Positions 16,850-60,000 of a DNA stretch of 60,000 nucleotides are shown piece by piece. A model generated the notes under the pieces. That model did not search any database. It was given only the letters and a program-made list of their open reading frames with translations, and was not told the origin of the DNA. The position numbers and the translations under genes were made by a program. This stretch comes from Bolinopsis microptera (taxonomy: Eukaryota; Ctenophora; Tentaculata; Lobata; Bolinopsidae). The stretch covers positions 1,693,675 to 1,753,674 of the forward strand of contig NC_087078.1 in the NCBI RefSeq assembly GCF_026151205.1, in the 5' to 3' direction. Each line of letters begins with the position of its first letter. Within the stretch, counting starts at the first letter, position 1.

Positions 16850-18874
16850 ATGAAACTTGTGTTTCTGGTTTTTCAGCTACTTCTGTTAACGGTAAGTCTT
16901 TTTAATAGTAAGACTATGATTAAATATGCGCTATAGTTTTTGTGTTTGTTTTAATCGAACTTCAGTTTAGACTTTAGAGATAAGAGGGAGAATTTTGTCG
17001 AAATTAAATATCAATCATTCACTTCGTATACTTCTTCAGCGAAACCTTTTAATACTATAATTATTGGACACAACAGAACACCATACTATTATTTGTTACC
17101 CCACCAGGAGAATATAGACTGCAGTGGAAAAGGGGAGATACAACTTGTTTCGTATATAGACTATACAAACTGCGGAGAAGATTGTGACTTTTACTTCAAG
17201 AACGTCGTAATTCAGGATGAGGATGGTAACAAATTTCTCGACGTAGCAAAAACAGATGACACTGGTAACACCGATAGGGTCTATTTCTCTAAAGTGAATA
17301 AGCTTGATAAAGCTATTCCAGTTGACATCAACACTGGTAGGAGTAATAGTATAACTATATCATTTGAAGCTTGGGATAAAGACACGGGTATTGGTAATTC
17401 TGATGATCATGAAAGAACAATGTCGGGTTTGGTGGTGCTATTTTCAGACATTGCCATTAGATCAGGTGGAACCTGGGAGTTTAAATCCTTTGTAAGTAAC
17501 ACTAACGCCGAGGGTCAAGACAAAGAAGCAACTCTTAAGATAAAATATAGGATATTGAGCTGCGATAACCGCTTCACTGGATTAGGCTGTAACTCCTGCG
17601 TAGATAACTACTATGGAACAGAGTGTGGTAAATACTGTAAACCTGTGTCAGGTCACTACACGTGTCATCCCACGACAGGGAGCAAGGTTTGTGAAGGAAA
17701 GAGAGCGGGAATTGAATGCGATGATTGTGTAGACCATTTCGAGGGAAACAATTGTGAGAGATGTGTTCAGAATTACTACCCGACAGAATCATGTAACATC
17801 CTCTGCATCCCAAACTCTGAAAGATACATTTGTACCTATGAAGGGGAAAAACAGTGTCTGCAATACAGGACTGGATCTGACTGCGAGGACTGTGTCGCAA
17901 ACCACTATGGAGAAGATTGTTCCAAGACCTGCCATGAGACGTCTAGCTTCAGCTGTGATGAATCAGGAGAGAAAGAGTGTAAGGAAAACTACTACCCAGC
18001 ACAGAAGTGTAACAGACACTGTGAGCTGGTACCAGGTAACTACACTTGTAACCAGGTAACAGGAGAAAAGATCTGTCTGGAGGGAAAGGAAGGAGAAGAC
18101 TGTGATGAATGTTTAAACAAAAACAAAGAAGGAGGAAATTGTGATAAATGCATAAAAAACTACTACGGGGATTGCACAGTCTATTGCAAGCCAGATAGTG
18201 AGCATTACAATTGCTTGGAAAATGGAACCAAAATCTGTGTTGACAACACAACAGTTGCTGAGCATGACTGTCGGATACCAAATCATATCTTAAACATTCC
18301 CTTGATAGGGGCAGCAGGGGGTTGTGTAGGGCTGTTTATCATTCTACTTTTGACTTGCATAATTCTAAAAGTGAGAAAAGACAGAAATAAAAACGTCGCA
18401 GAAGAGATACTGATAGGAGGAGAAACTGATAATACTCAAAGGAACCAATACCAGGAAGCAATTCACCCCACAGTGAATAATCAAGCTGCTCATTCCTCGG
18501 AGGAAACAGGAGATGTTTATAGCCGGATAAACAGACAGGAACAAGGAAAGCAACATCCCCAGATTGGACCTGACCAAAACCAAGACGCTCTCTACTCGAC
18601 AATGCAATCCCAGCCTGTCTACGCAACTATAGATAAAGGAGATAAATACGCTCGCCTAGACAGACACGAGGGAAAGTCTAATGGGACCTACAGTCCTGAA
18701 ACTGGAGAAGAACCAACATACGCTGACGTATCCTTTGTGAGGAATGAGAGATATGGTGCGGTGACATTTAGGAACAGAGCTCAAAATGGGGATAATGGTG
18801 TTGAAGGTACAGGACAGAATGGAGAGGAGGCGACCTACATTACAGTGAGTCAAGTGATAGAGGAGAGACTATAA
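16850..18874 (+). CDS. DSL-repeat transmembrane receptor A1 (Notch-ligand-like)
   Basis: Exon 1 is 16850-16891 (MKLVFLVFQLLLLT, donor gtaagt). Exon 2 is 17108-18874 (acceptor ccccaccag). Phase is 0 at the junction, total 602 residues. Residues 1-14 are the signal-peptide core. Residues about 15-165 are a beta-rich domain whose end (GGTWEF...KIKYRILSC) parallels the MNNL domain of Delta/Jagged ligands. Residues about 166-402 are consecutive DSL-like modules, the first reading YYGTECGKYC...GHYTC. About 410-434 is one transmembrane helix followed by KVRKDR. The 168-residue tail has tyrosine motifs YSRI (485), YSTM (510), YATI (519), YARL (528), YADV (552) and YITV (591). There are no EGF repeats, unlike true Notch ligands. 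NxT/S sites suggest glycosylation. Signalling through SH2 proteins is inference. Confidence 0.85.
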
Positions 18875-20095
18875 GTGGGTCAACTCTGTGAAGATTTGAA
18901 GGGCGATTATGGGCAATTAATATAACTATAATAAGTGTGAGATGAGTTTTAACTTAGAACTGTTAGAACAGTTGTGTTTTTACTGTTATAAGTAGTTTGT
19001 TGAACGTTGAAACCATTGCTGAAGAGCAGTGATATTATTTAAATAGACCTAATAATTTGATTAATTACCAGTTTTTTTGCTAATTTTGATGATTAAAACT
19101 ATTTGGAAGATGCGATTTCTTTTACTATTTGAAAAATTTCATGCGATTATTGATTATTACTAATTATTCCAATTGAACCCCAAATTGAGCTTCGTGTTGT
19201 TATAGTGTAGTGTTCTACTTCAATTTTTGTATTATCATTATTTCATAATCACTTTCATTTAATGCACTTTCAACAATTTCAATTCATGCATTTGCTTTTT
19301 GTTCCAAAATAGTAGAACATGATCAAACAATATGTAATTCGAAATATCTCTGAACCGAAATTGACAAATATAGAGGGTCACATCAGAGTTATTGTAACTT
19401 TTCTACTTCTAGGCTAACTCGAAGATCGAAACGTCACAACTTCCTATCTCACAGATATTATATTCCTGAGAACTGAGCTTTAACAATTGGAATATTGCTC
19501 GTCCCTGTTTTGTTAATACTCACTAGACTTATTGTGTTCGGTACACTGTTCACATTATACTCTAAATATAGAATACCTTTCCGGATTCTCAAGAGAAAAA
19601 GTGCTATCTACTCAAACTCAACACTTAATAGGAACTGAAATAGCTACTACTGAATGCTACTGAATGTAGCAGCTTAAGTCCATGATAGGGTGATGACTGA
19701 TGTCCATCTACCATTTCGTATCTTTAATGAATAAAGTATCTTGCTATTAAACTATACTTTCATTCACCCAAATTCCCGTTTTTGACAGCGATGTTAAAAC
19801 TGTCGATGATGAACGTACAACAATTAGCTAACAGTTATATATTATTTCGTGAACGATAAGTTATACCTATAGATAAAGATATAGATGTTGTACCATGTAC
19901 CACTTGCCTATACGCAGAACTGCAATAAAGAAAATCATATCTGCTACTAAAGATACAAAACCGTCATTGCATGACTACCGACTGTAACAGATTGCAACAT
20001 AGGGAATAACTTTCAGTTTTGCCTACAAGTAAATTCAGTTTTGCTTAGCATTTTGAGAACGCTTTATTTGAATTTCGTTGAATGATTGAAAGATA
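18875..20095 (+). other. 3' flank of receptor A1
   Basis: Non-coding and AT-rich, homologous to the flanks of A2 (23031-24351) and A3 (27204-28728). It probably includes the 3' UTR; a shared polyadenylation-type hexamer lies at 19730-19735. It ends at a leader-exon copy at 20096. Confidence 0.5.
19730..19735 (+). terminator. Candidate polyadenylation signal, A1
   Basis: AATAAA in the context gAATAAAgtatcttgctatt, about 0.86 kb past the stop. The same context is kept after A2 and A3. Confidence 0.3.
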
Positions 20096-20137
20096 ATGAA
20101 GCTGATATTTCTACTTACAAAGTTGCTTCTCTTGACG
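20096..20137 (+). other. Orphan leader exon, B type (upstream of A2)
   Basis: ATG to ACG encodes MKLIFLLTKLLLLT followed by the donor gtaagt. It is base-for-base the leader exon of gene B (28729-28770). Here the intron sequence runs on for about 125 bp and then switches to the A-gene upstream region, with no B exon 2 behind it. It is a duplication relic. Because it ends in phase 0, as does the A2 leader, it could still splice to A2 exon 2 at 21180 as an alternative first exon. Confidence 0.7.
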
Positions 20138-20915
20138 GTAAGTGATTTTCAAGCTGTCATTTAGTATTTTGTGATAATTCTTCTCACTACTTGCTATGAT
20201 TTTCAAATCCGCAATCCAACACTGAACACAGTCACACCTCGAAGGGTACCATGCTATGAATCGTTGTTTTTATTGTAATTATAATATATATATACGCTAA
20301 ATAGAACCCTTTTTAAAATGTGATAAGATTTTATCCGTTTTAAATCTCCTGAAACTTTTCGAAAAATGATGTGAAGTGAAGATCTTCATCTATATATGTA
20401 CATTTTACTTGGAGCACACTTTATATATCAACCTGAACCAGTGATGGATAGGGTTTCCGAATTCTTACAATAAAAAGCGCTACTAAAACCCCGATGTATT
20501 AGGAACTCAGAATGCTGGGCAGCTCCATTCCGAGTTTCCACCTTTTGGATTGCTAATAACAATGTTCTACCCATTATTTTAAGATCTGCTCGGTAACTTA
20601 AAATTTAATAGCAATACACAATCATCAGCGGGTTAAAAAATAAATTATGCCCTTCCTACACTTGGCTTATTCTTTACACACCTCTCTGTTCAACTTGGCA
20701 GTGAAATAAAACAGCTCAACAAGCTCAAGGTTACTTCTACCTCTGCAGTATTACTCGTTATAACAAGAACAGTGAGCTACTCAACGTACAAAACTACCGG
20801 TAACCAGAACTTATACACGGTAAGGTAGGGTACAGATTTCTCATTCCGTCTTCGTTACGTTACATTAACTGGTTTGATCACTGTATATAATACGTTCAAT
20901 CTTCTGGAGATTGGG

Positions 20916-23030
20916 ATGAAACTTGTGTTTCTGGTTTTTCAGCTACTTCTGTTAACGGTAAGTTTTTTTAATAGTAAGACTATGATTAAATATGCGATAT
21001 AGTTGTTGTGTTTGTTTTAATCGAACTTCAGTTTAAAGATAAGAGGGAGCATTATCTTAAGAAATGTCGTAATAAATTAAAATATTAATCATTCACTTCT
21101 TCAGCGAAACCTTTTAAGTTTTAATACTATAATTATTGGACACAACAGAACACCATACTATTATTTGTTACCCCACCAGGAGAATATAGACTGCAGTGGT
21201 AAGGGAGAGATAAAACTTGTTTCGTATACAGACTCTACATACTGCGGAGACGAGTGTGACTTTTACTTCAAGAACGTCGTAATCAAGGATGAGGATGGTA
21301 TCGAGTTTCTCAGAGTAGCAGAAACAAGTACAAGTTGGGACACTGATCCGGTCTATTTCTCTAACGTGGAGCAGCTTGATGAAGTTATTTCAGTAAACAT
21401 CCACACTGGTAGGAGTATAACGATATCATTTGAAGTGTGGGATGAAGACACGGGTGCTGATGATTATGAAAGAACAATGTCGGATTTGGTCGTACCATTT
21501 TCAGGCATTGCCATTAGATCAGGTGGACCCTGGTCGTGGAAATCCTTTGTAAGTGACACTAGCGCTGAGGGTGACGACAAAGAAGCAACTCTTTGGATAA
21601 AATATAGGATATTGAGCTGTGATAACCACTTCACTGGATTAGGCTGTAACTCCTGCGTAGCTAACTACTACGGAACAGAGTGTGGTAAATCCTGTAAACC
21701 TGAGCCTGGTTACTACACGTGTCATCCCACGACAGGGAGCAAGGTTTGTGTAGATAGGAGATCAGGAGATAACTGTGATACCTGCATCACAGGCTTCAGA
21801 GGAGAGAGTTGTCAGTCATGTTCTGATAATTACTACCCTGAGGGGACGTGTAATGTGCACTGTCTCCCAGATCTAGACAAATACACCTGCACTAACCAGG
21901 GAAGTAAAGAGTGCCTGGTAAATAGGGAAGGACCTAATTGTGAGGACTGTGTCGCTAACCACTACGGAGATGATTGTTCCACATTATGTGAAGAAACTGC
22001 TAGCTACACTTGTGGGGAATCAGGAGAGAAGATATGCAGGGACCACTTCTACCCAGCACAGAAATGTAACAAACATTGTGAGCTGGTACCAGATAACTAC
22101 ACTTGTAATAATACTACAGGAGAGAGGATATGCAGGGAACACTTCTACCCACCACAGTTATGTGAAACTAACTGTGAACCAGAACAAGGTAACTATACCT
22201 GTAACCAAACTACAGGAGACAAGAAGTGTGCGGAGGGAAAGACAGGAGAAGACTGTGATGAGTGTCAAAACAGAAACAAAGAAGGAAGAAATTGTGATAG
22301 GTGCATAAAAAACTACTATGGGGATTGCACAGCCTATTGCAAGCCAGATATGGAGCATTACAGTTGCTTGGAAAATGGAACCAAACTCTGTGTTGACAAC
22401 ACAACAGTTTCTGAGCATGACTGTCGGAGACCAAATCAGAACTTGAACATTCCCTTGATAGGGGCTGCAGGGGGTGGTGTAGGGCTGTTTCTCATTCTAC
22501 TCTTGACTTGCATCATTCTAAAAGTGAGAAAAGACAGAAATAAAAACGTCGCAGAAGAGATACTGATAGGAGGAGAAACTGATAATACTCAAAGGAATCA
22601 ATACCAGGAAGCAATTCACCCCACAGTGAATAATCAAGCTGCTCATTCCTCGGAGGAAACAGGAGATGTTTATAGCCGGATAAACAGACAGGAACAAGGA
22701 AACAGAAAGCAACATCCCCAGATTGGAGCTGACCAAGACGCTCTCTACTCTACAATCCAATCCCAGCCTGTCTACGCAACTGTAGATAAAGGAGATAAAT
22801 ACGCTCGCCTAGACAGACACGAAGGAACTTCTAACGGGATCTACAGTCCTGAAACTGAGGAAGAACCAACATACGCTGACGTATCCTTTGTGAGGAATGA
22901 GAGAGGAGATGATGTGGTGACGTTTAGGAATGCAGCTCAAAATAGGAATAATGGTGTCGAAGGTACGGGACAGTATGAAGCGGAGGCGACCTACATTACA
23001 GTGAGTCAAGTGATAGAGGAGAGACTATAA
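20916..23030 (+). CDS. DSL-repeat transmembrane receptor A2
   Basis: Exon 1 is 20916-20957 (MKLVFLVFQLLLLT, donor gtaagt). Exon 2 is 21180-23030. Phase 0, 630 residues. The architecture is that of A1, but the ectodomain carries one extra cysteine module (around 22110-22220; its start repeats ICR-[DE]-HFYP) and its middle modules differ strongly from A1, for example RRSGDNCDTCITGFRGESC. The six tail motifs are kept as YSRI, YSTI, YATV, YARL, YADV and YITV. The tail has an extra NRK and lacks NQ relative to A1. No stop or frameshift is seen. Two possible leader exons precede it (20096 and 20916). It probably acts at the cell surface; ligand unknown. Confidence 0.85.
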
Positions 23031-24351
23031 GTTGGTCAACTCTGTAAAGATTGGAAGGGTGATTATGGAAGGGTGAGATGAGTTTTGACTTAGAACTGTT
23101 AGGACAGCTTTGTGTTTTTCTACTGCTATTGACTTTTCATCTTCTTGATCAACATTTTAGTAAGTAGTTTGTTGAATGTTAAAACCATTGCTGAAGAGCA
23201 GTGATAATTTAAAGACGTAATAATTTGATTAATTGCAGTTTTGTTTTGCTTATTTTGATTATAAGAACTATTTGGAAGATGCGCAGTTTTTATTTTATTA
23301 GAACCGCGATTTCTTTTACTATTTGAAACATTTCATGCGATTATTGATTATTACCAATTGTGACGTCGACTAAAAGGTAAGCCGTGTTTTGGTAGGACGA
23401 ATTCCAATTGAACCCCAAATTGAGCTGCATGTTGTTATGGTGTAGTGTTCTACTTCAATTTTTGTATTATTATTATTTCATAATCACTTTCCTTTAATGC
23501 ACTTGCAACAATTTCAATTCATGTATTTGCTTTTCGTTCCAAAATAGTAGAACATGATCAAACAATATGTAATTCGAAATATCTCTGAACCGAAATTGAC
23601 AAATATAGAGGGTCACATCAGAGTTATTGTAACTTTTCTACTTCTAGGCTAACTCGAAGATCGAAACGTCACAACTTCCTATCTCACAGATATTATATTC
23701 CTGAGAACTGAGCTTTAACAATTGGAATTGCTCGTGTACCCTGGTTAGTAATAGTTAATACTCACTAGACAGAGACTTATTGTGTTCGGTATAACACTGG
23801 TCACATTATACTCTAAATATAGAATACCTTTCCGGATTCTCAAGTAAAAATTTGCTATCTTATCTACTCAAACTCAACACTTAATAGGAACTGAAATAGT
23901 TACTACTGAATGCTACTGAATGTAGCAGCTTAAGTCCATGATAGGGTGATGACTGATGTCCATCTACCATTTCGTATCTTTAATGAATAAAGTATCTTGC
24001 TATTAAACTATACTTTCATTCACCCAAATTCCCGTTTTTGACAGCGATGTTAAAACTGTCGATGATGAACGTACAACAATTAGCTAACAGTTATATATTA
24101 TTTCGTGAACGATAAGTTATACCTATAGATAAAGATATAGATGTTGTACCATGTACCACTTGCCTATACGCAGAACTGCAATAAAGAAAATCATATCTGC
24201 TACTAAAGATACAAAACCGTCATTGCATGACTACCGACTGTAACAGATTGCAACATAGGGAATAACTTTCAGTTTTGCCTACAAGTAAATTCAGTTTTGC
24301 TTAGCATTTTGAGAACGCTTTATTTGAATTTCGTTGAATGATTGAAAGATA
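23031..24351 (+). other. 3' flank of receptor A2
   Basis: Homologous to 18875-20095, and nearly identical from about 23520 on, running without a break into the duplicated upstream block of A3. No other gene is seen. Confidence 0.5.
23986..23991 (+). terminator. Candidate polyadenylation signal, A2
   Basis: AATAAA in the same gAATAAAgtatcttgctatt context as after A1, about 0.96 kb past the stop. Confidence 0.3.
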
Positions 24352-24393
24352 ATGAAGCTGATATTTCTACTTACAAAGTTGCTTCTCTTGACG
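24352..24393 (+). other. Orphan leader exon, B type (upstream of A3)
   Basis: Identical to the orphan leader at 20096 and to the leader of gene B. It encodes MKLIFLLTKLLLLT and has a good gtaagt donor in phase 0. No B-type second exon follows. It could serve A3 exon 2 (25443) as an alternative first exon, or be inert. Confidence 0.7.
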
Positions 24394-25171
24394 GTAAGTG
24401 ATTTTCAAGCTGTCATTTAGTATTTTGTGATAATTCTTCTCACTACTTGCTATGATTTTCAAATCCGCAATCCAACACTGAACACAGTCACACCTCGAAG
24501 GGTACCATGCTATGAATCGTTGTTTTTATTGTAATTATAATATATATATACGCTAAATAGAACCCTTTTTAAAATGTGATAAGATTTTATCCGTTTTAAA
24601 TCTCCTGAAACTTTTCGAAAAATGATGTGAAGTGAAGATCTTCATCTATATATGTACATTTTACTTGGAGCACACTTTATATATCAACCTGAACCAGTGA
24701 TGGATAGGGTTTCCGAATTCTTACAATAAAAAGCGCTACTAAAACCCCGATGTATTAGGAACTCAGAATGCTGGGCAGCTCCATTCCGAGTTTCCACCTT
24801 TTGGATTGCTAATAACAATGTTCTACCCATTATTTTAAGATCTGCTCGGTAACTTAAAATTTAATAGCAATACACAATCATCAGCGGGTTAAAAAATAAA
24901 TTATGCCCTTCCTACACTTGGCTTATTCTTTACACACCTCTCTGTTCAACTTGGCAGTGAAATAAAACAGCTCAACAAGCTCAAGGTTACTTCTACCTCT
25001 GCAGTATTACTCGTTATAACAAGAACAGTGAGCTACTCAACGTACAAAACTACCGGTAACCAGAACTTATACACGGTAAGGTAGGGTACAGATTTCTCAT
25101 TCCGTCTTCGTTACGTTACATTAACTGGTTTGATCACTGTATATAATACGTTCAATCTTCTGGAGATTGGG

Positions 25172-27203
25172 ATGAAACTTGTGTTTCTGGTTTTTCAGCT
25201 ACTTCTGTTAACGGTAAGTTTTTTTAATAGTAAGACTATGATTAAATATGCGATATAGTTGTTGTGTTTGTTTTAATCGAACTTCAGTTTAAAGATAAGA
25301 GGGAGCATTATCTTAAGAAATGTCGTAATAAATTAAAATATCAATCATTCACTTCGTATACTTCTTCAGCGAAACCTTTTAATACTATAATTGTTGGACA
25401 CAACAGAACACTATACTTTTATTTGTTCACTTACCCCACCAGGAGAATATAGACTGCAGTGGAAAAGGGGAGATACAACTTAACAAGTATACAGACTATT
25501 CAAACTGCGGAGACGCGGACTGTGACTTTTACTTCAAGAACGTCGTAATTCAGAATGAGGATGGTAACAAATTTCTCGACGTAGCAGAAACAGATGACAC
25601 TGGTAACACCGATACGGTCTATTTCTCTAGCGTGAATAAGCTTGATGAAGTTATTCCAGTAAACATCCACGCTGATAGGAGAATAACGATATCATTCGAA
25701 GCATGGGATGAAGACCCGGCCGGTAATTCTGATGATCATGAAAGAACAATGTCGGGTTTGGTGGTGCCATTTTCAGGCATTAGATCAGGTGGAACCTGGA
25801 AGGATAAATCATTTATAAGTTACACTAACGCTGAGAATGAAAACAAAAAAGCAACTCTTTGGATAAAATATAGGATATTGAGCTGCAATAACCACTTCAC
25901 TGGATTAGGCTGTAACTCCTGCGTAGCTAACTACTACGGAACAGAGTGTGGTAAATACTGTAAACCTGTGTCAGGTCACTACACGTGTCATCCCACGACA
26001 GGGAGCAAGGTTTGTGCAGGAAATAGAGCGGGAATTGAATGCGATGATTGTGTAGACCATTTCGAGGGAAATAATTGTGAGAGATGTGTTCAGAATTACT
26101 ACCCGGCAGAATCATGTAACATCCTCTGCATCCCAAAACCTGAAAGATACATTTGTACCAATGAAGGGGATAAACAGTGTCTGCAATACAGGACTGGATC
26201 TGACTGCAAGGACTGTGTCGCAAACCACTATGGAGAAGATTGTTCCAAGACCTGCCATGAGACGTCTAGCTTCAGCTGTGATGAATCAGGAGAGAAAGAG
26301 TGTAAGGAAAACTACTACCCAGCACAGAAGTGTAACAGACACTGTGAGCTGGTACCAGGTAACTACACTTGTAACCAGGTAACAGGAGAAAAGATCTGTC
26401 TGGAGGGAAAGGAAGGAGAAGACTGTGATGAATGCTTAAACAAAAACAAAGAAGGAGGAAATTGTGATAAATGCATAAAAAACTACTACGGGGATTGCAC
26501 AGTCTATTGCAAGCCAGATAGTGAGCATTACAATTGCTTGGAAAATGGAACCAAAATCTGTGTTGACAACACAACAGTTGCTGAGCATGACTGTCAGAGA
26601 CCAAATCAGAACTTGAACATTCCCTTGATAGGGGCTGCAGGGGGTGGTGTAGCGCTGTTTCTCATTCTACTCTTGACTTGCATCATTCTAAAAGTGAGAA
26701 AAGAAAGAAATAAAAACCTCGCAGAAGAGATACTGATAGGAGGAGAAACTGATAACACTCAAAGGAACCAAAACCAGGAAGCAATTCACCCCACAGTGAA
26801 TAACCAAGCTGCTCATTCCTCGGAGGAACCAGGAGATGTTTATAGCCGGATAAACAGACAGGAACAAGGAAACAGAAAGCAACATCCCCAGATTGGACCT
26901 GACCAAGACGCTCTCTACTCTACAATCCAATCCCAGCCTGTTTACGCAACTGTAGATAAAGGAGATAAATACGCTCGCCTAGACAGACACGAAGGAACAT
27001 CTAACGGGACCTACAGTCCTGAAACTGAGGAAGAACCAACATACGCTGACGTATCCTTTGTGAAGAATGAGAGAGGAGATGATGTGGTACTGACGTTTAG
27101 GAATGCAGCTCAAAATGGGGATAATGGTGTCGAAGGTACGGGACAGTATGGAGCGGAGGCGACCTACATTACAGTGAGTCAAGTGATAGAGGAGAGACTA
27201 TAA
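25172..27203 (+). CDS. DSL-repeat transmembrane receptor A3
   Basis: Exon 1 is 25172-25213 (donor gtaagt). Exon 2 is 25443-27203 (acceptor ccccaccag). Phase 0, 600 residues. The first 63 codons of exon 2 contain no ATG, GTG or TTG, so a simple ORF search would miss the N-terminal part, yet the frame is open and homologous to A1 (CSGKGEIQLNKYTDYSNCG). The N-terminal domain and DSL-like modules closely match A1. The transmembrane segment and tail match A2 (shared NRK insert, YSTI, YATV, TEEEPTYADV, QYGAEATYITV). This looks like a recombinant of the two. All six tail tyrosine motifs are present and no lesion is seen. Confidence 0.85.
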
Positions 27204-27605
27204 CTATAAGTGGGTCAACTTTGTAACGGTTGGGAGGTTGATTATGGACAATTAATATTATATTAGTGTGAGATGAGTTTTAACTGGGACAGTTGTGTGT
27301 AACTAATGTTATTGACTTTTTATCTTCTCAATCAACATTTGAGTAAGTAGTTTTTTGAATGTTAAAACCAGTGATACTATTTAAGACGTAATAATTTGAT
27401 TAATTACCAGTTTTTTGCTAATTTTGATGATTAAAACTATTTGGAAGATGCGCAGTTTTTATCTTAAGAACCGATTTCTTTTACTATTTGAAACATTTCA
27501 TGCGATTATTGATTATTACTAATTATGACGGCCCCTATTATAAGGTAAGCCGTGTTTTGGTAGGACGAATTCCAATTGATCCCCAAATTGAGCTTCGTGT
27601 TGTTA

Positions 27606-27776
27606 GGGGTCGTTCACATATTACGTAATCAGCTGAGGGGGGGGGGGGGGGGGTTTCGAATGATTACGCTAGTGTAATTTTTACACAATAGCTATGTGTA
27701 AAACTGATTACGGAGGGGGGGGGGGGGGGGGGTAAAAATGTTCCAAAAAATGATTAATGAATATGTGAACGACCCC
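27606..27776. mobile_element. 171-bp MITE with TTA target duplication
   Basis: The ends are GGGGTCGTTCACATATTACG and, on the right, ATATGTGAACGACCCC, inverted repeats. TTA stands on both sides (27603-27605 and 27777-27779). The paralogous flanks of A1 (near 19199) and A2 (near 23437) show the empty site gttgTTAt-gtgtag, which proves insertion. A 3-bp TTA duplication fits the PIF/Harbinger superfamily. Inside are two G-only runs of about 16-18 bases. There is no coding capacity. A longer relative is at 29483-30048. Confidence 0.85.
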
Positions 27777-28330
27777 TTATAGTGTAGTGTTCTATTTTAA
27801 TTTTTGTATCATTATTATTTCATAATCACTTTCATTTAATGCAGTACTTTCAACTGTCAACAATTTCAATTTATGTATTTGCTTTTCGTTCCAAAATAGT
27901 AGAACATGATCAAACAAAATGTAATTCGAAATTTCTCTGAACCAAAATATAGAGGGTCACATCAGAGTTATTGTCACTTTTCTAGGATAACTCGAAGATC
28001 GAAACGTCACAACTTCCTATCTCACAGATATTGTATTCCTGAGAACTGAGCTTTAACAATCCGAATAGCTCGTCCCTGTTTTGTTAATACTCACTAGACT
28101 TATTGTGTTCGGTACACTGTTCACATTATACTCTAAATATAGAATACCTTTCCGAATTCTCAAGAGAAATGTGTTATCTACTCAAACTCAACACTTAATA
28201 GGAACTGAAATAGCTACTACTGAATGCTACTGAATGTAGTAGCTTAAGGACATGATAGGGTGATGACTGATGTTCATCTACCATTTCGAGATAAATTAAG
28301 CTGAATTCAGTAGCAAGGGTATCTTTGACG

Positions 28331-28336
28331 AATAAA
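28331..28336 (+). terminator. Candidate polyadenylation signal, A3
   Basis: AATAAA in the same context as after A1 and A2, about 1.13 kb past the stop (the MITE insertion lengthens this flank). Confidence 0.3.
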
Positions 28337-29482
28337 GTATCTTGCTATTAAACTATACTTTGATTCACCCAAATTCCCGGTTTTGACAGCGGTTTAAAAA
28401 CTGTCGATGATGAACGTACAACAAGCTAACAGTTTTATATATTCTTTCGTGAACGATAAGTAATACCTATAGATATACATGTTGTACCACTGGCCTATAC
28501 GCAGAACTACAATTAATAAAATCATATCCTATTAATTCATTCATTCAAGCGTGAATGTGATGCATAGCCCGACTCATCAGCTACTCTAGATACAAAACCA
28601 TTTGCATTGCATGACAGATTGCAACATAGGGAATAACTTTCACTTTTGCCTACAAGTACAAGTAAATTCAGTGTTGCTTAGCATTTTGAGATCGCTTTAT
28701 TTGAATTTTGTTGAATGATTGAAAGATAATGAAGCTGATATTTCTACTTACAAAGTTGCTTCTCTTGACGGTAAGTGATTTTCAAGCTGTCATTTCTTTT
28801 TTGAGGGCTCATTTTTGTCCATGATTGTAGTATTTTGTGATAATTCTTCTCACTACTTGCTATGATTTTCAAGCCTGCAATCCAACACTGAACACAGTCA
28901 CACCTCGAAGGGTACCATGCTATGCATAATAGGTTATTTTCGTATCCGGATCCCAGGGACATACACAATGCAGTGGACAGGGAAAGATACAATTCTTGAC
29001 GTATACAGATTCAATAAGCTGTGATGACGGAGGAGAATGTGACTTCTTCTTTAAGAACTTCCTTATCCAAGACGAGGACGACAATGAACTTCACAAAGTT
29101 ACGGAAACGGGTGATACCAAAAATAAGGATACAGTTGATTTCTCCGACTTGAGTAAGTTTGCCAATGCGTTTGAAATAAATATCCCCTCGGGGAAACGTA
29201 TCAAAATATCGTTTGAAGTGTGGGATAAAGATGAGCCATGGAGCAAAAATGATCTGAAGCGAAATTTGACAGCTTTTTTGTCCCATTTTCATGCATAGAC
29301 TTAGAGGTTGCAAATGACTGGCGAGAGAAGTCATTCATGATTGGTGAAAACGAAGCAACTTTGACAATCCAGTATAAACTGACGAGGTGTGGACAAAACT
29401 TCACCGGTTTAGGTTGTAATTCTTGCGAAGATAACTACTACGGAACAGAGTGCAGCAAATACTGCGACCCTAATCCCAGTTA

Positions 29483-30048
29483 GGGGTCGTTCACATATTA
29501 CGTAATCAGCCGAGGGGGGAGAGGGTTTCCAAATGCTTACGGTTGATTACGGGGGGGGGGGGGGGGGTTTCGGTCGTTGATTACGTAATCAACATTTTCT
29601 TTTTTACCCTCTAGAATAATAACAATTTGACAATATTTTAATTCAAATTCCACTCAATTTCACTCTGATAGTGATAAAATTTAGAAATTGATCGAATATC
29701 CGGCTATATAATAATAGTAAAAAGTTTATAAGGTGCTTGGCCGGATATCATAACAATGATTTCGGCTCATCATGATAGCATGATCAGGGTAGCATGAACA
29801 ATGAAACGTATAGAAAAGTGTTTTCTAGGAAAAAAGTCAAAGGGGGGGGGGGGGGGGGGGGGTTGAGTCTTGATTATGGTTGATTACGGAAGGGGGGAGG
29901 GGGGTAAAAATTGCTAAAATATTACTGGGCCGCGCTGAGCGCTCAGCCTGTCATTCCGCCTAATCTCTATATCAATATGTTTATAAACATGGTAGCCTGA
30001 GGTCCCCAGGTAACTTAAATATTGATTACGTAATATGTGAACGACCCC
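29483..30048. mobile_element. 566-bp MITE inside receptor B exon 2
   Basis: Terminal inverted repeats GGGGTCGTTCACATATTACG... and ...ATTACGTAATATGTGAACGACCCC, with TTA duplicated on both sides (29480-29482 and 30049-30051). Joining the flanks restores the DSL-like codons for S-Y-Y-D-C. It is the same family as 27606-27776 but longer, with several G-only runs of up to about 20 bases and a second element nested at 29922-30013. No transposase is encoded. Confidence 0.85.
29922..30013. mobile_element. Small palindromic element nested in the MITE
   Basis: It starts TTACTGGGC and ends CCCCAGGTAA, and is the reverse-oriented relative of 13318-13388 and 15689-15805 (shared gcgctcagcctgtcatt and ggtccccaggtaa parts). 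Confidence 0.6.
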
Positions 30049-31214
30049 TTACTATGACTGTGACTCCTCTAGAGAAATAGTCTGTGAAGAAAAGAGAACA
30101 GGAGATAGGTGTAATGACTGTAACTGTAAGGAACATTTCGAGGGAGAAAATTGTGAGAGGTGTGTTGAGAGCTACTACCATGAGGGAACCTGTGATGCGC
30201 GCTGTCTCCCTGATCCAGAGAAATACAACTGCGCTGATCAAGGAGAGAAAGAGTGTCTCAGTCTAGGAAACAGAACTGGATCAAGCTGTAAGCGCTGTGT
30301 CATTTACCACTTTGGAGAAGATTGTACTAAATTCTGCAATAAGACAACTAGCTACAACTGTGATGGATCAGGAGAGCAAGTCTGTAACGATAACTACTTT
30401 CCGGAAAAGAAATGCGACACACAATGTGAACCAGTACTAGGTAACTATACTTGCAACCAGATGACAGGAGAGAAGATCTGTGTGAAGGGAATGGAAGGAG
30501 AAGACTGTGATGAGTGCTTAAATAGGAACAAAGAAGGAAGAAATTGTGATAGGTGCATTGAACAACACTACGGAGAGAATTGCACAGTCTATTGCAAGCC
30601 AGATATTGAGCATTACAATTGCTCGGAGAATGGAACAAAAATCTGTTCCGACAGCACAATGTCTATTGAGCATGACTGTCGGAGACCAAATCAGACCTTG
30701 AACATTCCTATGATTGGGGCTGCAGGGGGTGGTGTAGGGCTGTTTCTCATTCTACTGTTGACTTGCATCATTCTAAAAGTGAAAAAAGACAGGATGAGAA
30801 CATATTTAATTAAGCACAATCAAAGAAATCTGAACCGAGAAGCCATCTGCTCTACAGTAGAAACAAATCTTGCCCACCCCTCAGTCTCAGAAGATGGAGT
30901 GGGGGAAGAAAACAGGTACCAAGGAAGACATGCCCAGATTCAACCTGATGAGAACCAAGATGCCATTTACTCGACGATCCAGTCACACAGTACTGGAAGT
31001 GGATACGATACTCAACTGCTCTTAAAAGCTTGAACGATGAACATAATGGTAGCTTTTACAGATATGGGGGACTATCGAGCAAGGACTACTGGAAGAAGAA
31101 GAAACATACGCTGACGTAACATTCGTGAGGAACAGGAAAGGATATGATTATGATGTTGTGACGAAAAGAAACTCAGCTAAAAGTTGGATTCACGGAGTTG
31201 GAGAACAGGATTGA

Positions 31215-32836
31215 GGATGGAGATGAGGCGGGTGATCGTGAACCATCAAGATTGTTGGAGCGACGCTGACTTAGACTATGTAAAAACTCGGAGTGCAATC
31301 CTAGTTTGAACTTTTAATTTAAGAATGTTTTGTTTTTTAAACTGTATGAATGATGATAATACTAATAGCAAATTTCTCAGATATTTAAGTGGCTCCATGG
31401 GGGGTACACTACACGTTTTTACACTATTTTACACTACACAATTAGCCTTTTTTGTGTATGGTGTAGTAAAAAAGGTACACTTTTTTACCCTTTTTATTTC
31501 ACTTAACAAAATGATTTTATAAAAATCTTCTTTTTCCCTATTATTTTACAATCAGTCTTCACATAGTACGTTTCCAAATGCAAAGCGTAAAACAAACCTT
31601 TAGCCAGAAAAAAATGTAATTTTTTACACTTTTTTACACTACAATTATGCCTTTTTTTATGTATGGTGTTAAAAAGTGTAGTGAATCATTTTGAATTAAT
31701 TTTTTATAATATTGTGGTGTGGTGCTACTCTAAGTCTAATTCTAAATGTGGAGAGTAAATTTTTATTGTTTGAATTAATAATAATATGGAAACAGTTTCA
31801 GGCTAGGTTATCAATATGACTTTGAATTTTGTAACGTGGCAAACATTTTAGTCATCAATGTTAGTTAGGCATTTCAATGAGACAATTCATGTACTTGTAG
31901 AAAGGAAGATAATTTCACGGACAATGCCAGGTTTACAACCACTTTGCGAATAGAATCAATACGTGACACAGTCAACTCGTGACATCGTAGATCTAACTCG
32001 CGTCACATTCCCGTGAATGTTCTGGGAGGTGATCACAGGACACAGATAATATCATAGGAAATCTGTTAATCAGCTCAGTGAGTAGGTAACCGTCAAGAGA
32101 AAAACACAAGTCAATGTGACATGAGTCGCAGCACCGTACTGCTATAATGGGTATACGTATGACGTATTAAGTTGCATGTAGTTGTACTTGGGGTAACACC
32201 ATACTACTTAGAGTAGCAGAGTTTCTTACTATTCTGACTTCAGTTTTAATCAGAAACAAAATGAAACACACAATTTTTAAACAAAACAATCAAGCCATGT
32301 AACAACTTTATTTGCAATGTTTCAAAAAGCTTATTAAAATCATATTACGTATAATGGTATATGACCGGGGCAATCAAACTTCAGTCCTTCAAAAGTTACA
32401 CATCTTTCCTTGGGAAAAGTAACAAGGGTATTATAATTGCTGAACATTTACACTATACTAGCGATTGCGACCAGACCTCGAAAATGTTGTGTTGTTGTTG
32501 CCAGTGTGAATGTGATGTTAAATTATGCAGTTTTACACAGACAGAGTTGGCGACGATATCTGTCGATATCTCGCCAATACAGATTCTAGAATACAGATCC
32601 ACGGTGCTGGTGACCGGGGTATTTGAGACTGTGTTTATTTTTTGAGAATCAATGATTCGATTGAGACGATACTAATAGAGAAATATGAAGTTGAATTATC
32701 TCAAAAAAATGCACCTTTTAAGCTTAATAAAATATAAAAACAGACAAGCCGGGGAATAAACACAATCTCAAAACGGCAGAGAGCTCTGCTGTGTAATTAC
32801 AGGGTGACATAACATGTGTAATTGTATGGGTGTGGT
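31215..32836 (+). other. Downstream flank of receptor B (ancestor of the array unit)
   Basis: Non-coding DNA that, together with the 3' half of B, was copied into the 2,425-bp array. It differs from the array units at a few positions, for example tgacttcag against tgacttccag, and a gttgt insertion before the gttgttgttgcc run. No gene is recognised; small frames at 31325-31522 and 32361-32645 have no known domain. Confidence 0.5.
31401..31690. repeat. Possible MITE with imperfect ~24-bp inverted ends
   Basis: The left end ggtacactacacgtttttac and the right end aaaaagtgtagtgaatc are imperfect inverted repeats. Inner copies (ttttacactacacaattagc and gcctttttttatgtatggtg) are arranged in pairs. 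It is present in every array unit because it lies in the duplicated DNA. Confidence 0.4.
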
Positions 32837-33640
32837 GAACCAGTACTAGTAGCTACTAGTAGGTAACTATACTTGCAACCAGATGACAGGAGAGAAGATC
32901 TGTGTGAAGGGAATGGAAGGAGAAGACTGTGATGAGTGCTTAAATAGGAACAAAGAAGGAAGAAATTGTGATAGGTGCATTGAACAACACTACGGGGGGA
33001 ATTGCACAGTCTATTGCAAGCTAGATATTGAACATTAAAACAATTGCTTGGAGAATGGAACAATAATCTGTTCCGACAGCACAACGTCTATTGAGCATGA
33101 CTGTCGGAGACCAAACCAGACCTTAAACATTCCCTTGATTGGGGCTGCAGGGGGTGGTGTAGGGCTGTTTCTCATTCTACTGTTGACTTGCATCATTCTA
33201 AAAGTGAGAAAAGACAGGATGAGAACATATGTAATTAAGCACAATCAAAGAAATCTGAACCGAGAAGCCATCTGCTCTACAGTAGAAATAAATCTTGCCC
33301 ACCCCTCAGTGACAGTCTCAGAAGATGGAGTGGGGGAAGAAAACAGGAAGCAAGGAAGACAGCCCCAGATTCAACCTGATGAGAACCAATATGCCATTTA
33401 CTCAACGATCCAGTCACACAGTACTGGAAGTGGATACTCAACTGCTCTTAAAAACCTGAACGATGAACATAATGGTCGCTTTTACAGATATGGGGGACTA
33501 TCGAGCAAGGACTACTGGAAGAAGAAGAAACATACTCAGACGTAACATTTGTGAGGAACAGGAAAGGATATGATTATGATGTTGTGACGAAAAGAAACTC
33601 AGCTAAAAGTTGGATTCACGGAGTTGGAGAACAGGATTGA
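32837..33640 (+). pseudogene. 3' fragment of receptor B, array copy 1
   Basis: It starts inside a cysteine module (GNYTCNQMTGEKIC). It has a 3-bp insertion that creates a stop (cat-taa-aac) at 33036-33038 just before the NNC module, then an open stretch through the transmembrane segment (NIPLIGAAGGGVGLFLILLL) into a tail with YAIYSTIQ. It shifts frame before TYSDVTFVRN. There is no leader exon, N-terminal domain or upstream promoter, so it is not expected to make a receptor. Confidence 0.85.
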
Positions 33641-35261
33641 GGATGGAGATGAGGCGGGTGATCGTGAACCATCAAGATTGTTGGAGCGACGCTGACTTAG
33701 ACTATGTAAAAACTCGGAGTGCAATCCTAGTTTGAACTTTTAATTTAAGAATGTTTTGTTTTTTAAACTGTATGAATGATGATAATACTAATAGCAAATT
33801 TCTCAGATATTTAAGTGGCTCCATGGGGGGTACACTACACGTTTTTACACTATTTTACACTACACAATTAGCCTTTTTTGTGTATGGTGTAGTAAAAAAG
33901 GTACACTTTTTTACCCTTTTTATTTCACTTAACAAAATGATTTTATAAAAATCTTCTTTTTCCCTATTATTTTACAATCAGTCTTCACATAGTACGTTTC
34001 CAAATGCAAAGCGTAAAACAAACCTTTAGCCAGAAAAAAATGTAATTTTTTACACTTTTTTACACTACAATTATGCCTTTTTTTATGTATGGTGTTAAAA
34101 AGTGTAGTGAATCATTTTGAATTAATTTTTTATAATATTGTGGTGTGGTGCTACTCTAAGTCTAATTCTAAATGTGGAGAGTAAATTTTTATTGTTTGAA
34201 TTAATAATAATATGGAAACAGTTTCAGGCTAGGTTATCAATATGACTTTGAATTTTGTAACGTGGCAAACATTTTAGTCATCAATGTTAGTTAGGCATTT
34301 CAATGAGACAATTCATGTACTTGTAGAAAGGAAGATAATTTCACGGACAATGCCAGGTTTACAACCACTTTGCGAATAGAATCAATACGTGACACAGTCA
34401 ACTCGTGACATCGTAGATCTAACTCGCGTCACATTCCCGTGAATGTTCTGGGAGGTGATCACAGGACACAGATAATATCATAGGAAATCTGTTAATCAGC
34501 TCAGTGAGTAGGTAACCGTCAAGAGAAAAACACAAGTCAATGTGACATGAGTCGCAGCACCGTACTGCTATAATGGGTATACGTATGACGTATTAAGTTG
34601 CATGTAGTTGTACTTGGGGTAACACCATACTACTTAGAGTAGCAGAGTTTCTTACTATTCTGACTTCCAGTTTTAATCAGAAACAAAATGAAACACACAA
34701 TTTTTAAACAAAACAATCAAGCCATGTAACAACTTTATTTGCAATGTTTCAAAAAGCTTATTAAAATCATATTACGTATAATGGTATATGACCGGGGCAA
34801 TCAAACTTCAGTCCTTCAAAAGTTACACATCTTTCCTTGGGAAAAGTAACAAGGATATTATAATTGCTGAACATTTACACTATACTAGCGATTGCGACCA
34901 GACCTCGAAAATGTTGTTGTTGTTGCCAGTGTGAATGTGATGTTAAATTATGCAGTTTTACACAGACAGAGTTGGCGACGATATCTGTCGATATCTCGCC
35001 AATACAGATTCTAGAATACAGATCCACGGTGCTGGTGACCGGGGTATTTGAGACTGTGTTTATTTTTTGAGAATCAATGATTCGATTGAGACGATACTAA
35101 TAGAGAAATATGAAGTTGAATTATCTCAAAAAAATGCACCTTTTAAGCTTAATAAAATATAAAAACAGACAAGCCGGGGAATAAACACAATCTCAAAACG
35201 GCAGAGAGCTCTGCTGTGTAATTACAGGGTGACATAACATGTGTAATTGTATGGGTGTGGT
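32837..35261 (+). repeat. Tandem array unit 1 (2,425 bp)
   Basis: The unit runs from gaaccagtactagtagctac to the next occurrence of the same sequence. It holds the 3' half of the receptor B coding region plus about 1.6 kb of its downstream flank. Units 2-4 follow at exactly 2,425-bp steps, and I found no difference among units 1-4 on reading them. Confidence 0.95.
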
Positions 35262-36065
35262 GAACCAGTACTAGTAGCTACTAGTAGGTAACTATACTTG
35301 CAACCAGATGACAGGAGAGAAGATCTGTGTGAAGGGAATGGAAGGAGAAGACTGTGATGAGTGCTTAAATAGGAACAAAGAAGGAAGAAATTGTGATAGG
35401 TGCATTGAACAACACTACGGGGGGAATTGCACAGTCTATTGCAAGCTAGATATTGAACATTAAAACAATTGCTTGGAGAATGGAACAATAATCTGTTCCG
35501 ACAGCACAACGTCTATTGAGCATGACTGTCGGAGACCAAACCAGACCTTAAACATTCCCTTGATTGGGGCTGCAGGGGGTGGTGTAGGGCTGTTTCTCAT
35601 TCTACTGTTGACTTGCATCATTCTAAAAGTGAGAAAAGACAGGATGAGAACATATGTAATTAAGCACAATCAAAGAAATCTGAACCGAGAAGCCATCTGC
35701 TCTACAGTAGAAATAAATCTTGCCCACCCCTCAGTGACAGTCTCAGAAGATGGAGTGGGGGAAGAAAACAGGAAGCAAGGAAGACAGCCCCAGATTCAAC
35801 CTGATGAGAACCAATATGCCATTTACTCAACGATCCAGTCACACAGTACTGGAAGTGGATACTCAACTGCTCTTAAAAACCTGAACGATGAACATAATGG
35901 TCGCTTTTACAGATATGGGGGACTATCGAGCAAGGACTACTGGAAGAAGAAGAAACATACTCAGACGTAACATTTGTGAGGAACAGGAAAGGATATGATT
36001 ATGATGTTGTGACGAAAAGAAACTCAGCTAAAAGTTGGATTCACGGAGTTGGAGAACAGGATTGA
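35262..36065 (+). pseudogene. 3' fragment of receptor B, array copy 2
   Basis: Same truncated content and the same in-frame stop and frameshift as copy 1, so these lesions predate the amplification. Confidence 0.85.
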
Positions 36066-37686
36066 GGATGGAGATGAGGCGGGTGATCGTGAACCATCAA
36101 GATTGTTGGAGCGACGCTGACTTAGACTATGTAAAAACTCGGAGTGCAATCCTAGTTTGAACTTTTAATTTAAGAATGTTTTGTTTTTTAAACTGTATGA
36201 ATGATGATAATACTAATAGCAAATTTCTCAGATATTTAAGTGGCTCCATGGGGGGTACACTACACGTTTTTACACTATTTTACACTACACAATTAGCCTT
36301 TTTTGTGTATGGTGTAGTAAAAAAGGTACACTTTTTTACCCTTTTTATTTCACTTAACAAAATGATTTTATAAAAATCTTCTTTTTCCCTATTATTTTAC
36401 AATCAGTCTTCACATAGTACGTTTCCAAATGCAAAGCGTAAAACAAACCTTTAGCCAGAAAAAAATGTAATTTTTTACACTTTTTTACACTACAATTATG
36501 CCTTTTTTTATGTATGGTGTTAAAAAGTGTAGTGAATCATTTTGAATTAATTTTTTATAATATTGTGGTGTGGTGCTACTCTAAGTCTAATTCTAAATGT
36601 GGAGAGTAAATTTTTATTGTTTGAATTAATAATAATATGGAAACAGTTTCAGGCTAGGTTATCAATATGACTTTGAATTTTGTAACGTGGCAAACATTTT
36701 AGTCATCAATGTTAGTTAGGCATTTCAATGAGACAATTCATGTACTTGTAGAAAGGAAGATAATTTCACGGACAATGCCAGGTTTACAACCACTTTGCGA
36801 ATAGAATCAATACGTGACACAGTCAACTCGTGACATCGTAGATCTAACTCGCGTCACATTCCCGTGAATGTTCTGGGAGGTGATCACAGGACACAGATAA
36901 TATCATAGGAAATCTGTTAATCAGCTCAGTGAGTAGGTAACCGTCAAGAGAAAAACACAAGTCAATGTGACATGAGTCGCAGCACCGTACTGCTATAATG
37001 GGTATACGTATGACGTATTAAGTTGCATGTAGTTGTACTTGGGGTAACACCATACTACTTAGAGTAGCAGAGTTTCTTACTATTCTGACTTCCAGTTTTA
37101 ATCAGAAACAAAATGAAACACACAATTTTTAAACAAAACAATCAAGCCATGTAACAACTTTATTTGCAATGTTTCAAAAAGCTTATTAAAATCATATTAC
37201 GTATAATGGTATATGACCGGGGCAATCAAACTTCAGTCCTTCAAAAGTTACACATCTTTCCTTGGGAAAAGTAACAAGGATATTATAATTGCTGAACATT
37301 TACACTATACTAGCGATTGCGACCAGACCTCGAAAATGTTGTTGTTGTTGCCAGTGTGAATGTGATGTTAAATTATGCAGTTTTACACAGACAGAGTTGG
37401 CGACGATATCTGTCGATATCTCGCCAATACAGATTCTAGAATACAGATCCACGGTGCTGGTGACCGGGGTATTTGAGACTGTGTTTATTTTTTGAGAATC
37501 AATGATTCGATTGAGACGATACTAATAGAGAAATATGAAGTTGAATTATCTCAAAAAAATGCACCTTTTAAGCTTAATAAAATATAAAAACAGACAAGCC
37601 GGGGAATAAACACAATCTCAAAACGGCAGAGAGCTCTGCTGTGTAATTACAGGGTGACATAACATGTGTAATTGTATGGGTGTGGT
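35262..37686 (+). repeat. Tandem array unit 2 (2,425 bp)
   Basis: Second head-to-tail unit, same content and boundary sequence as unit 1. Confidence 0.95.
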
Positions 37687-38490
37687 GAACCAGTACTAGT
37701 AGCTACTAGTAGGTAACTATACTTGCAACCAGATGACAGGAGAGAAGATCTGTGTGAAGGGAATGGAAGGAGAAGACTGTGATGAGTGCTTAAATAGGAA
37801 CAAAGAAGGAAGAAATTGTGATAGGTGCATTGAACAACACTACGGGGGGAATTGCACAGTCTATTGCAAGCTAGATATTGAACATTAAAACAATTGCTTG
37901 GAGAATGGAACAATAATCTGTTCCGACAGCACAACGTCTATTGAGCATGACTGTCGGAGACCAAACCAGACCTTAAACATTCCCTTGATTGGGGCTGCAG
38001 GGGGTGGTGTAGGGCTGTTTCTCATTCTACTGTTGACTTGCATCATTCTAAAAGTGAGAAAAGACAGGATGAGAACATATGTAATTAAGCACAATCAAAG
38101 AAATCTGAACCGAGAAGCCATCTGCTCTACAGTAGAAATAAATCTTGCCCACCCCTCAGTGACAGTCTCAGAAGATGGAGTGGGGGAAGAAAACAGGAAG
38201 CAAGGAAGACAGCCCCAGATTCAACCTGATGAGAACCAATATGCCATTTACTCAACGATCCAGTCACACAGTACTGGAAGTGGATACTCAACTGCTCTTA
38301 AAAACCTGAACGATGAACATAATGGTCGCTTTTACAGATATGGGGGACTATCGAGCAAGGACTACTGGAAGAAGAAGAAACATACTCAGACGTAACATTT
38401 GTGAGGAACAGGAAAGGATATGATTATGATGTTGTGACGAAAAGAAACTCAGCTAAAAGTTGGATTCACGGAGTTGGAGAACAGGATTGA
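37687..38490 (+). pseudogene. 3' fragment of receptor B, array copy 3
   Basis: Same truncated content and lesions as copy 1. Confidence 0.85.
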
Positions 38491-40111
38491 GGATGGAGAT
38501 GAGGCGGGTGATCGTGAACCATCAAGATTGTTGGAGCGACGCTGACTTAGACTATGTAAAAACTCGGAGTGCAATCCTAGTTTGAACTTTTAATTTAAGA
38601 ATGTTTTGTTTTTTAAACTGTATGAATGATGATAATACTAATAGCAAATTTCTCAGATATTTAAGTGGCTCCATGGGGGGTACACTACACGTTTTTACAC
38701 TATTTTACACTACACAATTAGCCTTTTTTGTGTATGGTGTAGTAAAAAAGGTACACTTTTTTACCCTTTTTATTTCACTTAACAAAATGATTTTATAAAA
38801 ATCTTCTTTTTCCCTATTATTTTACAATCAGTCTTCACATAGTACGTTTCCAAATGCAAAGCGTAAAACAAACCTTTAGCCAGAAAAAAATGTAATTTTT
38901 TACACTTTTTTACACTACAATTATGCCTTTTTTTATGTATGGTGTTAAAAAGTGTAGTGAATCATTTTGAATTAATTTTTTATAATATTGTGGTGTGGTG
39001 CTACTCTAAGTCTAATTCTAAATGTGGAGAGTAAATTTTTATTGTTTGAATTAATAATAATATGGAAACAGTTTCAGGCTAGGTTATCAATATGACTTTG
39101 AATTTTGTAACGTGGCAAACATTTTAGTCATCAATGTTAGTTAGGCATTTCAATGAGACAATTCATGTACTTGTAGAAAGGAAGATAATTTCACGGACAA
39201 TGCCAGGTTTACAACCACTTTGCGAATAGAATCAATACGTGACACAGTCAACTCGTGACATCGTAGATCTAACTCGCGTCACATTCCCGTGAATGTTCTG
39301 GGAGGTGATCACAGGACACAGATAATATCATAGGAAATCTGTTAATCAGCTCAGTGAGTAGGTAACCGTCAAGAGAAAAACACAAGTCAATGTGACATGA
39401 GTCGCAGCACCGTACTGCTATAATGGGTATACGTATGACGTATTAAGTTGCATGTAGTTGTACTTGGGGTAACACCATACTACTTAGAGTAGCAGAGTTT
39501 CTTACTATTCTGACTTCCAGTTTTAATCAGAAACAAAATGAAACACACAATTTTTAAACAAAACAATCAAGCCATGTAACAACTTTATTTGCAATGTTTC
39601 AAAAAGCTTATTAAAATCATATTACGTATAATGGTATATGACCGGGGCAATCAAACTTCAGTCCTTCAAAAGTTACACATCTTTCCTTGGGAAAAGTAAC
39701 AAGGATATTATAATTGCTGAACATTTACACTATACTAGCGATTGCGACCAGACCTCGAAAATGTTGTTGTTGTTGCCAGTGTGAATGTGATGTTAAATTA
39801 TGCAGTTTTACACAGACAGAGTTGGCGACGATATCTGTCGATATCTCGCCAATACAGATTCTAGAATACAGATCCACGGTGCTGGTGACCGGGGTATTTG
39901 AGACTGTGTTTATTTTTTGAGAATCAATGATTCGATTGAGACGATACTAATAGAGAAATATGAAGTTGAATTATCTCAAAAAAATGCACCTTTTAAGCTT
40001 AATAAAATATAAAAACAGACAAGCCGGGGAATAAACACAATCTCAAAACGGCAGAGAGCTCTGCTGTGTAATTACAGGGTGACATAACATGTGTAATTGT
40101 ATGGGTGTGGT
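37687..40111 (+). repeat. Tandem array unit 3 (2,425 bp)
   Basis: Third head-to-tail unit, same content and boundary sequence as unit 1. Confidence 0.95.

Positions 40112-51891: not shown

Positions 51892-60000
<8,109 letters not shown>

Follow-up and report, generated by a model that had tools for sequence, protein, structure and literature searches.

Several groups of cell-surface proteins are related in plan to the genes described here. The Draper/CED-1/MEGF10 and SCARF receptors combine EMI and EGF-type repeats with a single transmembrane helix and a tail carrying an immunoreceptor tyrosine-based activation motif (ITAM) or NPxY, and the Hydractinia Alr allorecognition genes are clustered, diversified and transmembrane, with an immunoglobulin (Ig)-like ectodomain. 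The closest precedent comes from cnidarian genomes, in which genes made up only of 1-11 DSL domains, plus one gene with MNLL and 3 DSL domains, have been reported and queried as either true genes or misassemblies (Gazave et al. 2009, PMC2770060); the part of that paper devoted to them is a two-sentence account that describes no tail, family or evolution. We have analyzed a cluster of DSL-repeat genes in a stretch of 60,000 nucleotides (the window, C7:1693675-1753674 of a 264.65-Mb genome; that the genome is an animal's was inferred from its genes). COX1, GFP and let-7 had no match in this genome, but mir-10, the intended positive control for let-7, had none either, so these results do not help to place the animal; a cnidarian would be a guess prompted by PMC2770060. 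We give about even chances to the view that these genes belong to a multigene family of recognition receptors that sit at the cell surface, cross the membrane once and have a C2 head and an SH2-docking tail.

Three intact genes (g1, g2 and g3, encoding 602, 630 and 600 aa) lie head-to-tail between 16.85 and 27.2 kb of the window. Together with a broken copy, g4, they make up the tandem cluster of three intact genes and one broken gene described in an earlier note on this DNA. Each intact gene begins with a 42-nt exon 1 for a 14-aa signal peptide (MKLVFLVFQLLLLT); after a phase-0 GT-AG intron of 216-229 bp comes a single long exon 2, which encodes in order an N-terminal domain, DSL repeats, one transmembrane helix and a tail with multiple YxxPhi motifs. 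The open frames span 606, 639 and 649 codons, and the splice sites are predictions from the genomic sequence. The signal peptide, consecutive DSL modules, single transmembrane helix and six-YxxPhi tail of the earlier note are thus all present in g1-g3, with a seventh motif in g1.

The HMM search proposed in that note was positive for Pfam DSL (PF01414), with E values of 1e-16 to 1e-18 and 5 stretches in each protein. No EGF family exceeded the Pfam cut-off in g1-g3 (EGF_laminin reached at most 20.3 bits against a cut-off of 21), and the cysteine modules match EGF_laminin and SCARF1 weakly. The best matches of the DSL part in a profile search of the PDB are Jagged, Serrate and Delta (4.4e-6 to 2.5e-5). 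Pfam did not support the MNNL-like domain named for the N-terminus: MNNL (PF07657) was not listed at E<=1 for the 6 proteins of one scan or the 23 of another. A weak alignment of this region with MNNL was obtained by hhalign (P 0.0015). The AlphaFold2 model of the g3 N-terminal domain has a C2 fold, for which Foldseek ranked the C2-DSL-EGF part of human Jagged2 first (1.3e-6). The profile and structure searches therefore bear out the Notch-ligand-like ectodomain that had been proposed.

The C2 loop EAWDxD...DD aligns with VEAWDSSND of Jagged1. Its D-x-D is kept in 20 of 23 family members, and in 19 of the 23 it is accompanied by a third acid. We take the aligned aspartates to be Jagged1 D140 and D144, by our own count from an assumed chain start at 32. 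These two residues, in the beta5-beta6 loop, are reported to be required for full liposome binding by Jagged1, whose C2 domain binds phosphatidylcholine/phosphatidylserine/phosphatidylethanolamine liposomes with Ca2+ (PMC3888931). Calcium is described as bound through these loops in Jagged1 and 2, the aspartates being missing from DLL1 and 4 (PMC5538765). Retention of the calcium acids argues against simple decay of the C2 domain.

The loop by which a DSL domain contacts Notch is altered in nearly all counted modules of the family. Cysteines 3 and 4 are separated by 7-8 residues in 136 of 137 modules, counting those that fit one cysteine pattern, versus 11 in Jagged1. The sole long-loop module, in the upstream paralogue g0, has 11 residues without phenylalanine. 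Among the 30 DSL loci listed, an 11-residue loop occurs only there (L022) and in L001-L003, DSLs elsewhere in the genome, none of which has phenylalanine at the F207 position. The gap in the profile alignment falls on Jagged1 D205-F207 (numbering by our own count). The Notch-binding DSL face of Jagged1 is reported to comprise F199, R201, R203 and F207 (PMC3415683), and F207A in its DSL domain to abolish Notch binding (PMC3888931). With the loop shortened and F207 inside the gap, this face was not recovered in the family. Because the contact loop is 3-4 residues short in 136 of 137 modules, canonical binding of Notch by family members appears unlikely.

The tails of g1-g3 carry the motifs YSRI, YSTM/I, YATI/V, YARL, YADV and YITV, to which g1 adds YGAV. 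The tyrosines of YSTx, YATx and YARL are spaced exactly 9 residues apart, as the earlier note had it. These tails contain 6-7 YxxPhi, compared to 1.3-1.5 in shuffles of the same tail (p 0.0005-0.001). A survey of 30 frames found a transmembrane helix in 14, and YxxPhi exceeded shuffles (p<0.05) in 10 of these 14 tails, which, the paralogues being related, are not 10 independent cases; the excess did not reach p<0.05 in C7_6240563, C7_6454781, C7_6832323 and C12_9971276. When g3 is compared with four divergent tails, of which two are near-duplicates, identity is 54-90% in YxxPhi columns and 24-40% in other columns, and each tail keeps 5 of 6 motifs. C3_10302727 and C7_6236120 agree in 10 of 24 motif columns and 28 of 136 others, and keep 4 of 6 motifs. 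The pair YSTI-x5-YATV is found again in C7_6236120 and C7_6458065, and YSTI-x5-YPTV occurs in C7_6470524; some YxxPhi-x5-YxxPhi pair is present in 6 of 14 tails. The ITAM consensus is YxxL/I-x6-8-YxxL/I, and none of the 14 tails matches it strictly; we rejected the ITAM label. The textbook inhibitory counterpart (immunoreceptor tyrosine-based inhibitory motif, ITIM), [SIVL]xYxx[IVL], is found in none of the three window tails; an ITIM-like site occurs in 5 of 14 tails overall. Only one of the 14 tails has NPxY, and it is not one of the three window tails. The C3_7471218 tail bears two YVPM motifs, which are of the PI3-kinase SH2 type. The genome has 33 SH2 matches. Syk/Zap70 homologues have been reported from invertebrates (PMC5978004), and kinases of this type would be natural partners of the tail.

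The family extends well beyond the window. The C2-DSL part of g3 has 37 matches. They fall in 35 places on 9 contigs, and C7 alone has 19 of these places; 31 places are outside the window, g0 among them, 44 kb upstream of it. Some of the 37 matches are fragments and 2 contain stops, while 10 lie in frames of 606-1103 codons, 1103 being the longest single frame. A tail query gave 26 matches at E<=0.1, array fragments counted, and Pfam DSL has at least 72 matches in the genome (150 of 214 candidates scored), other DSL genes included. Of 21 non-window paralogues, 19 have a candidate signal exon with a donor site in the 500 bp upstream; the same scan finds one in 0 of 21 when run on the reverse strand, and in 32 of 2100 shuffles. 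Alignments A1 and A3 cover 23 of the 30 C2-DSL loci; they omit L036 (truncated array), L042 (N-terminus shared with L041), L050 and L056 (broken g4), L057 and L060 (partial) and L058 (stops). A quick-method tree of the 23 members leaves 5 of 20 inner branches open and gives C3_10304k a long branch. Two pairs of loci on different contigs, L041/L042 (C3/C11) and L051/L054 (C1/C13), have identical or near-identical C2-DSL starts and are, from their sequences, apparent recent dispersed duplications; the tail of the C3 copy in the first pair contains two DGYVPM motifs. Further DSL-repeat genes are split over short exons on C1, C4 and C8 (L005, L006, L010, L011, L015-L018, L020, L024-L026 and L030); their modules are near-identical between C1 and C8, and on C4 lie ~244 kb apart on opposite strands.

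Identity within the cluster is uneven. Upstream of g2 and g3, 1.67 kb is 98.8% identical, with 100% identity in the last 330 bp and in exon 1. The DNA of the transmembrane helix and tail is 97.3% identical, the C2 part 84.7%, the DSL part 80.0% and the 400 bp after the stop 82.5%. For g1 and g3, the DSL part is 97.5% identical and the C2 part 89.7%. This unevenness implies that either the heads were swapped between copies or the flanks were made uniform, each independently of the other, and the cluster is in this sense a probable mosaic. The expansion and diversification proposed earlier are supported by this pattern, by the 35 genomic places and by the divergent ectodomains. Among g0-g3 the ratio of nonsynonymous to synonymous substitution (dN/dS) is 0.73-1.08 in the C2 domain, 0.36-0.47 in the DSL array of five pairs (1.35 in g1-g3, on 18 changes) and 0.39-0.50 in the tail, which three of the pairs possess. 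Purifying selection on the DSL array is significant for 5 of the 6 pairs (p 6e-5 to 5e-10), and the C2 domain shows no significant departure from neutrality in any of the 6. With two more paralogues (15 pairs), the C2 ratio is 0.42-1.19 and exceeds the DSL ratio in 14 of 15. Within this one genome, no pair of g0-g3 paralogues has dN significantly above dS. For the final part of C2, pooling the pairs, which are not independent, gave a pN/pS (nonsynonymous to synonymous differences) of 3.0; no single pair is significant (p 0.06-0.43), and positive selection is not claimed. A C2 ratio near 1 would fit both relaxed constraint and diversifying selection.

The remaining elements of the cluster are listed in Table 1. 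The broken copy, g4, has a frame change near 29298 in its C2 part, an inserted element and a frame that stops early in the tail. The transposon-like element has inverted ends and adjoins poly-G runs; a matching end lies at 27606, between g3 and g4. Besides the 31 places outside the window, two features had escaped the earlier note. A g4-type first exon (MKLIFLLTKLLLLT) with a donor site lies 820 bp 5' of exon 1 in both g2 and g3 (at 20096 and 24352), so that each of these genes may be transcribed from two promoters and make use of two signal peptides. Four truncated copies follow at ~32-42 kb in 2425-bp units, whose start register is our arbitrary choice. Units 1-3 are 100% identical and the remaining unit 99.96% (4 gap columns); the array was either amplified very recently or produced as an artefact of assembly.

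Table 1. Coordinates of the receptor-family features (positions in the window, except for g0)
Feature	Position	Strand	Basis or remark
g1 exons	16850-16891 / 17108-18874	+	sequence-read splice sites
g1 exon 1, signal peptide MKLVFLVFQLLLLT	16850..16891	+	donor GTAAGT
g1 C2-like N-terminal domain, 151 aa	17108..17560	+	fold taken from g3 model
g1 DSL repeat array	17561..18304	+	Pfam DSL E 2.1e-18, 5 stretches
g1 transmembrane helix	18305..18367	+	mean hydropathy 2.61 over 21 residues
g1 tail, 7 YxxPhi	18368..18874	+	motif count
Candidate alternative first exon (MKLIFLLTKLLLLT) 5' of g2	20096..20137	+	identical to g4 exon 1
g2 exons	20916-20957 / 21180-23030	+	sequence-read splice sites
g2 exon 1	20916..20957	+	
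g2 C2-like domain	21180..21617	+	
g2 DSL array, exceeding those of g1 and g3 by 32 aa	21618..22457	+	Pfam DSL E 1.6e-16, 5 stretches
g2 transmembrane helix and tail, 6 YxxPhi	22458..23030	+	
Candidate alternative first exon 5' of g3	24352..24393	+	g4-type
g3 exons	25172-25213 / 25443-27203	+	sequence-read splice sites
g3 exon 1	25172..25213	+	
g3 C2-like domain (the one modelled)	25443..25883	+	AlphaFold2, Foldseek
g3 DSL array	25884..26627	+	Pfam DSL E 3.2e-18, 5 stretches
g3 transmembrane helix and tail, 6 YxxPhi	26628..27203	+	
g4, broken copy	28729..31214	+	end coordinate from the earlier note
Transposon-like insert in g4	29483..30048	+	inverted ends, 26 bp identical
Four 2425-bp tandem units, each with a truncated last DSL, transmembrane and tail piece	32010..41709	+	
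g0	C7:1648945-1649454	minus	C2-DSL match

Outside the receptor genes, the window holds a direct repeat (44792-45091 and 47156-47455, 98% identical over 300 bp at a spacing of 2364 bp), a CCCH zinc-finger frame on the minus strand (54719-55237; Pfam zf-CCCH, E 2.4e-5), which may resemble Roquin, and a long dinucleotide repeat run with open frames on both strands (57096-57644).

The recognition-receptor explanation draws on the computed architecture, the fold prediction, the loop shortening, the motif enrichment, the expansion and the mosaic; from these we infer the ligand, the tail phosphorylation and the recognition or immune role. The C2 head would bind a ligand, most simply a membrane phospholipid in the Ca2+-dependent manner of the Jagged C2 domain, or else a protein partner, and the DSL array, having lost canonical Notch binding, would act as a stalk. 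Clustering of receptors would let tyrosine kinases phosphorylate several YxxPhi in the tail, which could then recruit SH2 proteins. Duplication and exchange between copies would join many different heads to a single type of signalling tail, an arrangement suited to recognition of self and non-self, of microbes or of dying cells. Recognition receptors tend to show the pattern seen here, of near-constant tails with outer parts that diverge between neighbours.

One specific form of this explanation, which we regard as rather doubtful, makes the proteins engulfment receptors like Draper/CED-1/MEGF10 or SCARF, the C2 head recognising phosphatidylserine or another exposed lipid and the tail driving phagocytosis. 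The calcium-site acids of 19-20 of 23 C2 heads, the liposome binding of the Jagged1 C2 domain (PMC3888931) and the weak EGF_laminin and SCARF1 matches suit such a role; the scarcity of NPxY, the lack of any strict ITAM and the absence of EMI from the Pfam listing at E<=1 do not, and ~30 diverged copies seem excessive for a lipid receptor. Somewhat less probable still is a role as glycoproteins of adhesion or of a barrier, with YxxPhi, the classical sorting motif, serving mainly as an AP-2 endocytic signal and no tyrosine-kinase signalling. Long cysteine-rich stalks with a variable number of DSLs would fit, but the 6-10 motif copies of many tails and their conserved residues exceed the needs of sorting, and one paralogue carries the two YVPM instead.

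That the proteins modulate the Notch pathway, as an atypical ligand, as a decoy or by inhibiting Notch in cis, is improbable: the C2-DSL order and the nearest solved relatives of the DSL modules by sequence (Jagged, Serrate and Delta) point that way, but the contact loop is shortened at D205-F207, no EGF repeat exceeds the cut-off, and DSLs with the 11-residue loop exist elsewhere in the genome, though these too lack the phenylalanine. We attach hardly any weight to the idea that these are decaying or misassembled repeats. It would account for the broken g4 and 2425-bp units, for the complete identity of units 1-3, such as an artefact could give, and for the stops in 2 of 37 matches, but it conflicts with the long frames at 10 of the 37, with the purifying selection on the DSL array and with the signal exons of 19 of 21 paralogues.

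Taking recognition as the favoured function, we suggest tentatively, and with less confidence than for the receptor family as such, that these genes represent an unrecognised class of variable recognition receptors, in which C2-DSL ectodomains freed from Notch have been cassette-swapped between near-identical promoters and tails, the tail being a multivalent SH2-docking one. An early animal lineage would then have acquired, independently, a receptor repertoire for allorecognition or for detecting microbes or dying cells. If the recognition system is real, receptor diversity arose here from a source unrelated to the Ig, leucine-rich repeat (LRR) or lectin repertoires. The family also bears on the 2009 question of whether DSL-only genes are real or assembly errors, and it points to another role for the Notch-ligand module, in which it forms the outer part of receptors that have tyrosine-motif tails and belong to an expanded, mosaic family. 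In the open-licence PMC literature, outside which most subscription journals fall, we found no precedent for tandem-DSL receptors beyond PMC2770060, and an account of Nematostella tandem repeats does not mention DSL (PMC2805694).

Like the canonical Notch ligands (Delta, Jagged and Serrate), the family has a signal peptide, an N-terminal domain of predicted C2 fold followed directly by DSL, a single transmembrane helix and the calcium-loop aspartates of the Jagged type; unlike them, it has repeated short-loop DSL modules, a multi-YxxPhi tail and ~30 genomic places, with neither EGF above the cut-off nor detectable Pfam MNNL. With Draper/CED-1/MEGF10 and SCARF it shares a modular cysteine-rich ectodomain, a single transmembrane helix and tail tyrosine motifs, but its modules are C2 and DSL and its motifs multiple YxxPhi; of the EMI and EGF-type domains of the Draper/MEGF10 type, Pfam listed no EMI at E<=1 and EGF_laminin only below its cut-off. 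Hydractinia Alr genes are likewise clustered, diversified and transmembrane, but have the Ig-like ectodomain. The cnidarian genes, compared by description only, also have several DSL domains without EGF, one of them with an MNLL-type N-terminus. The modules of this large and little-described family are known, and it is their combination and the repertoire built from them that are new.

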